Origin: Gelidibacter algens
GTDB lineage: Bacteria > Bacteroidota > Bacteroidia > Flavobacteriales > Flavobacteriaceae
DNA length: 64,000 nt
NCBI RefSeq assembly: GCF_001678675.1
Contig: NZ_LZRN01000002.1
Location: forward strand, 124,001 to 188,000
Direction of reading: 5' to 3'
Shown: in pieces, positions 27,489 through 54,184 of the stretch
Numbering within the stretch: position 1 is the stretch's first letter
Layout: each line of letters starts with the position of its first letter
Made by a program: the position numbers and the translations under genes
The notes under the pieces: model-generated
Database searches by the model: none
The model's input: only the letters and a program-made list of their open reading frames with translations
What the model was told of the DNA's origin: nothing

Positions 27489-28205
27489 ATGTCAGAGTTA
27501 CAAATTAACACCACTCAAAATGTAAAAATAAATTTTACAGCTGCCGGAGCTGGAGAACGTTTGTTGTCCTTTATTATTGATACCTTGATCAAGCTTGGTT
27601 ACATCACTATTTTGAATATGAGCGTTGGTGCTTTTCAGGATATGGACCAATGGTCTCAGGTTGGACTCAATACATTACTTGGCCTGCCAGTGGTCTTTTA
27701 TACTTTGGTTTTGGAAGCCCTTATGGAAGGTCAGACTATTGGTAAAAAAATCATGAAGATAAAGGTCGTTAAAATTGATGGGTATCAAGCCTCACTTTCA
27801 GATTATGTGGTGCGATGGTTTTTTAGAATTGTGGATATTTACATTTTAGGTTTGGGATTTTTCGTGATTCTTTTCAGTAAAAGATCACAACGTTTGGGAG
27901 ACATGGCTGCAGGTACGTCGGTGATTATGTTGAAGGACAAGGTCAATATCAGTCACACCATTTTAGAAGATTTGCATGAAGATTACAAACCAACGTATCC
28001 AGCGGTCATTAAGTTGTCAGATAATGATGCGCGAATTATAAAAGACACGTTTACCACGGCAAAATTGGCCAGTGACTACCAAACGCTGATTAAGTTGCGA
28101 AACAAAATAACAGAAGTGATTGGAGTGACCGCAATCAATGGCAACGATATTCAATTTATCGACACTATTTTAAAAGATTATAATTATTATACCCAAAGCA
28201 TGTAA
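27489..28205 (+). CDS. RDD family membrane protein
   Basis: ATG 27489 (MSELQINTTQNVKINFTAAG) gives 238 residues; the frame opens at a TTG at 27438 inside the divergent gene, which is less likely. RDD signatures are present: GAGERLLSFIIDTLIKLGYI, ALMEGQTIGKKIMKIKVVKI and RSQRLGDMAAGTSVIMLKD. The last 70 residues form a soluble helical tail. It shares a 24-base intergenic gap with the SpoIIM-like gene, so the promoters overlap and the six genes are probably regulated together. Confidence 0.9.
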   Translation: MSELQINTTQNVKINFTAAGAGERLLSFIIDTLIKLGYITILNMSVGAFQDMDQWSQVGLNTLLGLPVVFYTLVLEALMEGQTIGKKIMKIKVVKIDGYQASLSDYVVRWFFRIVDIYILGLGFFVILFSKRSQRLGDMAAGTSVIMLKDKVNISHTILEDLHEDYKPTYPAVIKLSDNDARIIKDTFTTAKLASDYQTLIKLRNKITEVIGVTAINGNDIQFIDTILKDYNYYTQSM

Positions 28206-28215
28206 GCAGAGAGCC

Positions 28216-28612
28216 AAGTTTTGTTTTTCACAAAACTTGCGCGAATCGCTTATCCCGCATTTGGGCGGGATCTCACCGAGTTCCATTTAAATTATATAGG
28301 GTGTTTTTTTTCACAAAACTTGCGCGAATCGCTTATCCCGCATTTGAGCGGGATCTCGGATAGTGCCATTGAGGTTATGTAGTATACACGTTTTTCACAA
28401 AACTTGCGCGAATCGCTTATCCCGCATTTGGGCGGGATCTCAGGTAGGTCGATTTAAATTATGAGGCGTAACTGTTTTTCACAAAACTTGCACGAATCGC
28501 TTATCCCGCATTTGGGCGGGATCTCACCGAGTTCCATTTAAATTATATATAGCGTGTTTGTTTTTCACAAAACTTGTGCGAATCGCTTATCCCGCATTCG
28601 GGCGGGATCTCA
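28216..28612 (+). repeat. Five-copy tandem array, 52-bp core at an 84-bp period, non-coding
   Basis: Cores start at 28224, 28307, 28391, 28475 and 28561 (intervals 83, 84, 84, 86). Each begins TTTTTCACAAAACTTG, continues CGAATCGCTTATCCCGC and ends GGGCGGGATCTC; copies differ at only a few positions. Each contains a 7-bp hairpin, ATCCCGC with GCGGGAT around a 6-base loop. The inter-core segments (31-34 bases) are AT-rich and partly alike; the first and fourth share CCGAGTTCCATTTAAATTAT. In front of copy 1, AAGTTTTG (28216-28223) pairs with CAAAACTT (28231-28238). Intervals of 83-86 rule out one continuous reading frame. Confidence 0.9.
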
Positions 28613-28914
28613 GAGAGCAAATTTCAAATGGATTTTAAATCAGAATAGTACCATTTTAGACTGCGCTCAAATTGAAGTCTTTCAAAATTTTTTGGGCGAA
28701 TCTCTCAAAGCCAAGTTTTCTTTTTATAAAACAGATACCATCAACTTCGTGCAGCTTGCAAACAATTTATAAAGCTTATGTACCAGCAAATTTTTTTATA
28801 TGCTCATACTGCAATCACAACTAAAAAACAACAATTCCATATTTTTAGGTATTAAAATTCTAATTCCCAAAACGTGTTGCTATCTTTGAATGCTGAATTT
28901 TTTAATGACAGATT
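28613..28914. other. Non-coding stretch after the repeat array with a -7 element for the TRIC gene
   Basis: No credible gene. At 28710-28732 a segment beginning GCCAAGTTTTCTTTTTATAA resembles the opening of the first repeat copy, so the array may once have been longer. TATCTTTG at 28881-28888 is a -7 element 26 bases before the TRIC ATG; no good -33 box is visible. Confidence 0.45.
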
Positions 28915-29580: not shown

Positions 29581-30009
29581 TCAGTAATTATTTTTTTTTA
29601 AGCTATTTAAAAATTCATCGGCAGTCATTACCGGAATCAAGGATTTTTTAAAATCCTTACCATTTCTTGTGATGATGATGTCGCATTCTGATTCTGTAGC
29701 ACGGAAATATTGTAGGGCATCTTCAAAGTCTTTGATAGAGGAATTTAGTCCTTTTTCAATGGTCTGTTCGTTAAGCACGCAAATGTCACTAATGATGCTA
29801 AATTTCCTTAGTTTTTCCCGTGCAATTACTGAATTCTCAAATTTTGAAAGAAAATAATTGACCGTAGCAAATGAAATGGGTGATACTACCATCGTCACTA
29901 TCCCTTTTTCGGATAAGGTTGCAATTTTAGCTATCGGTTCATAAAATGGTGCTCTTTCACCCAATAGATCCAACATAACATTGGTGTCTATGAACAGTCT
30001 TTTACTCAT
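29581..30009 (-). CDS. PIN-domain toxin (VapC-like ribonuclease)
   Basis: A 142-residue PIN protein. RLFIDTNVMLDLLGER gives the first acidic ligand (Asp8); further acidic residues follow in KDFEDALQYF and SECDIIITRNGKDF, enough for the Mg-binding site. PIN toxins cut tRNA or mRNA when freed from the antitoxin. It overlaps the upstream antitoxin gene by 4 bases (ATGA), the typical coupled arrangement. Intact, unlike the toxin near 1.7 kb. Confidence 0.9.
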   Translation of the reverse strand: MSKRLFIDTNVMLDLLGERAPFYEPIAKIATLSEKGIVTMVVSPISFATVNYFLSKFENSVIAREKLRKFSIISDICVLNEQTIEKGLNSSIKDFEDALQYFRATESECDIIITRNGKDFKKSLIPVMTADEFLNSLKKNNY

Positions 30010-30254
30010 TTGTGTTTTTCAAGAAGGTAGTCTGAATACTCTTTTTTATAATTTAAATCGGTGGGAACCTGTTTTCCGGTAGCAATGCTTTTGACAAAAG
30101 GAGATATTTCAAATTCATCATTTGAGCTCTCTGTCGTCAATGATTGAAGGTAAGACTCAACTATTCTGGAAAGGCTCATGTTTTTATTCGAAGCATATTT
30201 TTTCGCTTTCTCTATGATCTTTTGATTAAGCTTTAAAGTCAATTTTGTGTCCAT
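30006..30254 (-). CDS. DUF6364-type ribbon-helix-helix antitoxin
   Basis: An 82-residue protein, MDTKLTLKLNQKIIEKAKKY followed by ASNKNMSLSRIVESYLQSL. This is a ribbon-helix-helix DNA-binding start and matches the DUF6364 antitoxins that precede PIN genes. The acidic and basic C-terminal half should bind the toxin. A minus-strand TATATTTG (30274-30281) is a good -7 box; the nearby TACGTA palindrome could be the operator. Confidence 0.85.
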   Translation of the reverse strand: MDTKLTLKLNQKIIEKAKKYASNKNMSLSRIVESYLQSLTTESSNDEFEISPFVKSIATGKQVPTDLNYKKEYSDYLLEKHK

Positions 30255-54096: not shown

Positions 54097-54184
54097 ACTG
54101 AACACGGAACACGGAACACTGAACACTGAACACTGAACACTGAACACTGAACACTGAACACTGAACACTGAACACTGAACACTG
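54097..54184 (-). repeat. Twelve-copy heptamer tandem repeat at the 3' end of pepT
   Basis: Plus-strand unit ACTGAAC repeated 12 times plus a partial ACTG; units 2 and 3 read ACGGAAC. On the pepT coding strand the unit is GTTCAGT. The tract ends 1 base before the pepT stop codon. The rest of the gap from the yajC terminator (53886-54096) shows nothing recognisable. Confidence 0.9.

Follow-up and report, generated by a model that had tools for sequence, protein, structure and literature searches.

The repeat array behind the RDD gene

An RDD-family membrane protein gene of Gelidibacter algens is followed by a block of closely similar repeats, which raises the question of what these repeats are and what they do at the end of this gene. 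The window analysed is a 64,000 bp stretch (assembly GCF_001678675.1, contig NZ_LZRN01000002.1, positions 124,001 to 188,000 of the forward strand), and coordinates refer to it unless another genome is named. A sequence-only reading had described five copies of a core recurring at about 84 bp. This is borne out: the cores start at 28222, 28305, 28389, 28473 and 28559, with start-to-start spacings of 83, 84, 84 and 86 bp, and TRF reports a single 84-bp array (28221-28612, period 84, 4.7 copies). The hairpin ATCCCGC/GCGGGAT, pointed out in the same reading, is present in all five copies. Since spacings of 83 and 86 are not multiples of three, a coding repeat was rejected. The main features, with matches to RNA models of the type 1 element (R1) and of its hairpin 1 (R3), are as follows.

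27489-28205, plus strand: RDD-family membrane protein gene (PF06271, E 3.8e-21); its TAA stop at 28203-28205 is the first part of the element
28203-28252, plus strand: copy 1, hairpin 1, complete (R3, 4.4e-20; family covariation)
28252-28271, plus strand: copy 1, hairpin 2, ATCCCGC/GCGGGAT, then CTC, without a T-run (sequence)
28206-28275, plus strand: copy 1 as delimited by the type 1 model (R1, 1.4e-18)
28294-28358, plus strand: copy 2, hairpin 1 without its conserved 5' half (R1, 1.4e-6)
28379-28442, plus strand: copy 3, hairpin 1 without its conserved 5' half (R1, 1e-7)
28466-28526, plus strand: copy 4, hairpin 1 without its conserved 5' half (R1, 5.3e-7)
28552-28612, plus strand: copy 5, hairpin 1 without its conserved 5' half (R1, 3.3e-8)
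28709-28732, plus strand: decayed relic of the hairpin 1 stem-loop (local alignment to copy 1)

The core is conserved far more than the linkers, with 6 of 53 core columns variable against 21 of 33 linker columns in copies 1-4 (Fisher p 6e-7), which supports the earlier proposal of tandem duplication with a constrained core. Pairwise linker identity ranges from 0.61 to 0.88; linkers 1 and 4 are 88% alike, so that a recent duplication is likely, and the remaining pairs are 61-73% identical. The suspicion that the array was once longer gains support from positions 28709-28732, which align to the hairpin 1 stem-loop of copy 1 with a score that none of 500 single-base shuffles, preserving base content only, equalled. 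This suspected relic stands as an alignment but not as a copy, because none of the RNA models R1, R2 (type 2) or R3 matches it.

The gene 3' of the array lies on the same strand as the RDD gene and matches PF03458 (Gly_transporter). Just behind it, on the minus strand at 29581-30254, two small overlapping genes of 142 and 82 aa look, by eye, like a PIN-domain toxin and its antitoxin. Elsewhere in the window, at 54097-54184, the heptamer ACTGAAC is repeated about 12.6 times with 97% matches (TRF) and is a possible slippage tract.

A conserved fold that begins with the stop codon

Among the five units, copy 1 stands apart. Its hairpin 1 has an outer helix of TAAGC paired with GCTTA, at the start of which lies the stop codon of the RDD gene. 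Inward of this helix come a GA-facing-GA internal loop, a short conserved helix interrupted by a single-base bulge, and finally an inner stem whose sequence is free. Hairpin 2 adjoins hairpin 1 directly, one base being common to both. The segment CACAAAACTTGCGCGAATCG had been taken for single-stranded. Within copy 1 it belongs to the 3' strand of hairpin 1, whose 5' half starts at the RDD stop (R3 match). Copies 2-5 have hairpin 2 but only the 3' half of hairpin 1, and R3 finds 28203-28252 as its only match in the window up to E 1. Lacking the 5' half, some units cannot form hairpin 1. Long-range pairing of a single 5' half with every 3' half was considered and rejected: it fits genome G000 and most units of G006, and fails in G002 and G001, whose later copies bear other arms (by eye).

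The same fold recurs across the family of related elements, where hairpin 1 begins with a base-paired stop codon and is kept by compensatory changes. In 41 aligned hairpins, hand-picked from 132 distinct sequences with the longest excluded and compared against a structure derived from the same family, 98.3% of cells are paired, compared with 27-54% after displacing the partner strand. The covariation score of this set is 0.444 against 0.117 in shuffles (0/500 as high), and 9 of 15 pairs have changed on both sides against 7.4 in shuffles (2/500). The stems thus covary strongly, mostly including the change from TAA/TTA to TGA/TCA: among 158 stop codon pairings, 154 are TAA/TTA, three TGA/TCA and one TGA/TTA. 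The regular expressions used for the set of 132 sequences, the pattern matches and the pairing counts fix the GA letters, so the constancy of the GA loop in those sets is built in. GU pairs outnumber AC pairs by 20 to 6 in 106 type 1 representatives (p 0.009), which argues that it is the sense strand that folds, as a single strand; G-T is also the milder mismatch in DNA, and the bias therefore indicates the strand, not RNA as opposed to DNA.

These observations bear on the idea that the array is a double-stranded protein-binding array, for example of the nucleoid or gyrase kind that has been suggested for certain BIMEs. The copies are in tandem and a spacing of 84 bp is close to eight helical turns by arithmetic, but the inner stem is free in sequence provided that pairing holds and the excess of GU over AC favours the sense strand, and we regard this explanation as very improbable.

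Relatives within Gelidibacter

BLAST with copy 1 finds relatives in all nine Gelidibacter genomes analysed, its own counted, and R1 matches in all nine as well. Type 1 elements lie behind the RDD gene in eight of them (tails judged by eye), the exception being G005, where the array runs off the contig end. Elements were also seen by eye behind the methylmalonyl-CoA mutase gene in seven of the nine, with none seen in G003 and G005. In the near pair G007/G008, units 1 and 2 are swapped, with 98% identity crosswise, which shows turnover of whole units; in G002 the arms differ among the array copies (by eye).

The array might be the product of passive tandem duplication and concerted evolution only, its cores alike since the copies are young or gene-converted. 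The recent duplication seen in linkers 1 and 4, the permuted units of G007 and G008 and the differing arms of G002 agree with this. Against it, the core is conserved while the linkers of the same copies have diverged, it is conserved in other genera and in Firmicutes, and its stems covary. We consider passive duplication as the whole explanation improbable.

A sister element of the form TTAGTGAAACC ... GGTTGAACTAATCCCGC, here called type 2, also has matches in all nine Gelidibacter genomes, from at least 5 to at least 68 per genome and at least 221 in total. R2, which was built without copy 1, nevertheless matches it at 28203-28272 (1.8e-7), and the two types are therefore akin; R1 contains copy 1 as one of its 13 sequences. 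The type 2 element starts at a T-tract (at least five T within the 12 bases before its start or running into it) in 23 of 30 located elements, against one of 33 other TTAGTG control sites. In 21 of these 23 a stable hairpin precedes the T-run, resembling an intrinsic terminator. Across 16 representatives, 134 of 143 inner-stem cells are Watson-Crick pairs, made up of letters that differ. The preceding gene, a putative priA, has its TAG stop provided by a type 2 element in G000 and G008 (by eye). The strict type 2 set holds three informative cells for strand bias, two GU and one AC; a bias computed from a looser pattern (GU 43, AC 46) was discarded as misaligned.

Other palindromes accompany the arrays of both types. 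In type 2 arrays the stems of later units contain a different palindrome, of the CTGTCTGCCGACAGGCAGG kind. In several type 1 arrays a palindrome CTGAGCxxxGTCGAAG forms hairpin 2 or stands as an insertion; this motif, too, includes a GA/GA mismatch. These observations come from loci L063, L066 and L070, and L056, L058, L190 and L200.

Spread and placement beyond the genus

A search for the core in other Flavobacteriaceae, as the sequence-only reading had proposed, found it with R1 in at least 26 of 149 genomes of the family (E up to 1e-4; 33 candidates scored per genome), and at least 25 of 148 genera matched. The RNA-model searches scored 20-150 candidates per genome, so that their counts are lower bounds. 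R3 matched at least nine of 296 Bacteroidota genomes, with 20 candidates scored per genome, and all nine belong to the Flavobacteriaceae. All 34 inspected R1 matches lie directly after a stop triplet (TAA in 30, TGA in four), a set that excludes the RDD and mutase first units seen earlier and the later array units, which follow no stop. At two of these loci, L136 and L142, the gene ends with a stop of its own and the triplet is a further TAA shortly after it.

Across GTDB genomes, a pattern that specified 24 positions, with two-fold choices at two of these, gave at least 120 matches in at least 118 stretches; the stop codon is part of neither the pattern nor the model. Among the matches listed, TAA precedes 117, CTT two (both in L269) and TTA one, and TAA precedes the element in all of the first 80 stretches listed. 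The genes before the listed matches encode the mutase (66), DnaK (19), an RDD protein (13), an FKBP (1) and others (2), which places 98 of 120 after the mutase, DnaK or RDD gene in Flavobacteriaceae and their kin. The other 19 have no long frame before them: 16 are Firmicutes records, one is L165 and two are the CTT cases of L269. Gene labels come from C-terminal tails, with a Pfam check of one representative of each of seven gene kinds (RDD twice). Besides the main hosts, mutase, DnaK and RDD, rarer ones in Flavobacteriaceae are HtpG, a prolyl isomerase and others; a sodium:dicarboxylate symporter and a carboxymuconolactone decarboxylase family gene are, with HtpG, further hosts. Related elements are found at the stop codons of a small recurrent gene set, or near terminator T-tracts. 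Tandem arrays with at least two 3' cores occur at 24 of 69 mutase, 9 of 15 RDD, 4 of 21 DnaK and 2 of 5 other loci.

At the Bacteroidota loci among L133-L158, L159-L238 and L319-L344, the last codon before a type 1 element specifies Met or Lys for the gene kinds observed (L136 and L142 having the second TAA); this could reflect a target preference, or simply a small number of founder genes. At L158, 3' of the DnaK element, stands a separate palindrome that starts CGTCATGCTGAAC and resembles a CGTC-tagged REP.

Clostridium neonatale has at least 38 matches and seven other Firmicutes genomes at least 4-10 each; six Flavobacteriia have at least 1-10 each. In some Clostridia and Negativicutes the elements are dispersed repeats away from stops: none of 20 C. 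neonatale copies inspected begins at the stop of a frame of at least 80 codons, and at ten Firmicutes loci the reading frame leading to the TAA spans just 2-41 codons. At L183, L187 and L225 (Acidaminococcaceae and Selenomonadales; Negativicutes) the hairpin sits inside a longer repeat with shared flanks, e.g. TGCAGACGAATTAATCAG, perhaps a MITE-like element.

Descent and mobility

The mutase gene was found in 44 of 60 genomes of Flavobacteriaceae. Among the best 30 of these 44, ten have the element at the mutase stop, two of them (L316 and L293) with weak scores. On the mutase gene tree the element state changes 8 times against 8.6 in shuffles (198/500 as low); the tree is a quick one and weakly supported, with one of 27 inner branches starred. 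Element state is thus not clustered beyond chance, which implies frequent losses or repeated hits on the same stop, and simple vertical descent at this gene was dropped as unsupported by the tree test. The scattered presence speaks against plain inheritance, though there may have been a single origin. Mutase loci without the element have different 3' flanks, so no clean empty site could be read.

A rival explanation is that the element is a mobile DNA palindrome, a non-autonomous repeat like those of single-strand-DNA transposons, for which stop codons and T-tracts are safe sites and which serves no host function. Its own first bases (TAA, TT) would restore the signal at the target, and arrays and folds would reflect transposition. 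The exact junctions, the scattered presence at the mutase stop, the high type 2 copy numbers within one genus (at least 5 to 68 matches per genome) and the 38 or more copies in C. neonatale all agree with it, as does a weak, partial Y1_Tnp match (23.1 bits) on contig 2 of G002 at 361145-361387, about 1 kb from the mutase array. The search for transposases, which covered Y1_Tnp only, also yielded much that does not fit. Matches are absent from nine of 18 element-bearing genomes, C. neonatale included; they occur in seven of nine Gelidibacter genomes, and in neither of the array-bearing G007 and G008. None of the 12 Y1 loci fetched, out of 32 Gelidibacter matches, has an R1 or R2 match within its flanks (up to about 2 kb, less at contig ends). 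Moreover, no viral contig has an exact pattern match, and viral carriage was rejected on this ground; the same few genes recur as hosts, and the stems are compensated. The sequence-only reading had held that copies scattered and tied to a transposase would mark a mobile-element by-product. The scattering is found; the tie is limited to the weak match near the G002 array, with none at the 12 fetched loci. We consider a mobile palindrome without host function possible, though on balance unlikely.

Transcription context and proposed function

A terminator-like hairpin with a T-run lies 3' of the element in 16 of 18 DnaK, 29 of 63 mutase, one of 15 RDD and one of five other loci, against none of 101 shuffled sequences, which preserve base content only. 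At DnaK the element thus lies between stop codon and terminator. With a terminator after only one of 15 RDD elements, a 3' UTR is an assumption for the RDD gene. Among the roles suggested by the sequence-only reading, an RNA element in the RDD 3' UTR fits best: the family covariation, the DnaK placement and the sense-strand bias favour it, and the scarcity of RDD terminators weighs against it. That reading was right in part; it missed the stop codon inside hairpin 1, the distinctness of copy 1, the recurrence of the family at defined genes across Flavobacteriaceae and the dispersal in Firmicutes.

The reading that we prefer, to which we give an even chance, is a REP-like two-hairpin element at exact gene 3' ends that acts on mRNA 3' ends and was multiplied at the RDD gene by recombination. 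The element's place, its covariation and the REPs reported near stop codons suggest that it acts as RNA, either at the end of translation or on the stability of the mRNA. The element would work as sense-strand RNA in the 3' UTR of an mRNA, where a folded 3' end would slow 3'-5' decay; mRNA stabilisation has been hypothesised for REPs, as described in PMC3733652. The folded end may also compete with the terminating ribosome, as reported for REPs near the stop: PMC12306157 describes ribosome stalling by REPs no more than 15 nt from a stop codon. In the RDD array the element would have been multiplied by recombination between units; only copy 1 retains a complete hairpin at the stop, and the other 3' cores would be kept by selection or by recent copying. 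The family may spread, or may once have spread, as a dispersed repeat. Several observations stand against this reading, the scarcity of RDD terminators and the ambiguity of G-T in DNA among them. Type 2 elements are found past the terminator, in a stretch to which little transcript from the upstream gene extends, and give no usable strand bias. Presence at the mutase stop is scattered, the Firmicutes copies inspected do not lie at gene stops, and copies 2-5 are without the 5' half of hairpin 1.

A bolder and rather doubtful version is that the elements form an unnamed gene-end class, in which the stop codon is one strand of a conserved fold, a sister type sits at T-tracts, and access to the stop comes under joint control with the fate of the mRNA end, the same few genes (chaperones, mutase) having been reached repeatedly across a bacterial family.

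A local repeat becomes a testable family, with a covarying structure that starts at stop codons and gave no match in the Rfam searches. If a stop codon in a helix affects termination or decay, this would be a new tie between the end of translation and mRNA fate; if the element is mobile, it would be a repeat that meets gene ends to the base.

Comparison with known systems

No known RNA family was recognised: Rfam searches gave no match in the window at the gathering score, and at ten loci searched up to E 1 the only hit was a weak overlap with Clostridiales-2 in L199 (23.4 bits against the 58.6 needed, E 0.35). A literature search by title and abstract found no description of the element and no publication on the CTTCGACAAGCTCAGG palindrome. 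An intrinsic terminator was rejected, hairpin 2 being followed by CTC instead of a T-run and the DnaK loci having separate terminators downstream (16/18). A CRISPR array was rejected as well, the linkers being 61-88% alike and not unrelated spacers. The consensus of integron attC simple sites is RYYYAAC ... GTTRRRY; compared by eye, the type 1 letters do not fit it, and the type 2 GTTGAAC fits one half.

In E. coli, BIME-2 arrays are clusters of structured units behind genes, and in this the RDD array is like them. BIMEs, as described in PMC3733652, are clusters of REPs. The REPs of a BIME alternate in inverted orientation; the array in the window consists of five direct copies with no inverted one. 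To the GTAG/CGTC REPs of PMC3733652 the element is similar as a short extragenic palindrome, mostly 3' of genes and in many copies, and GTAG REPs often provide the TAG stop codon of the neighbouring gene (PMC3733652). Unlike these REPs, it has two linked hairpins, a stop codon in the outer helix, few recurrent host genes and direct arrays. No GTAG or CGTC tag was seen at the hairpin foot in the elements inspected by eye: the foot of hairpin 1 is TAAGC/TGAGC or TTAGT, and hairpin 2 mostly follows GCTT or ACTA (by eye). As a multi-copy extragenic palindrome the element corresponds to a REP, and it does not correspond to a REPtron, a Y1 gene flanked by the repeat, since none of the 12 fetched loci has this arrangement and a single weak Y1 match lies about 1 kb from the G002 array. 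A RAYT link was rejected on the same 12 loci, which have no R1 or R2 match, and on the nine of 18 element-bearing genomes without Y1_Tnp. With no tags and no established transposase link, we do not file the element as a REP or BIME, though it may be REP- or BIME-like in its working.

Two further systems share single features with the element. The Bacteroidetes subclass 2.6 of TnpA_REP is described in PMC6006769 as having atypical structures without GT[AG]G and with copies elsewhere in the genome, which is a likeness; these structures flank the transposase gene, whereas none of the present elements lies near the 12 fetched Y1 loci, a comparison made by description only. The ribosome-stalling REPs within 15 nt of a stop codon (PMC12306157) share with the present element a stable hairpin close behind the stop; here, in contrast, the stop codon itself is inside the helix. 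Set among these systems, the block of repeats behind the RDD gene represents a structured gene-end element that is widespread; here it forms a local array, in part decayed, and its anatomy is well supported.
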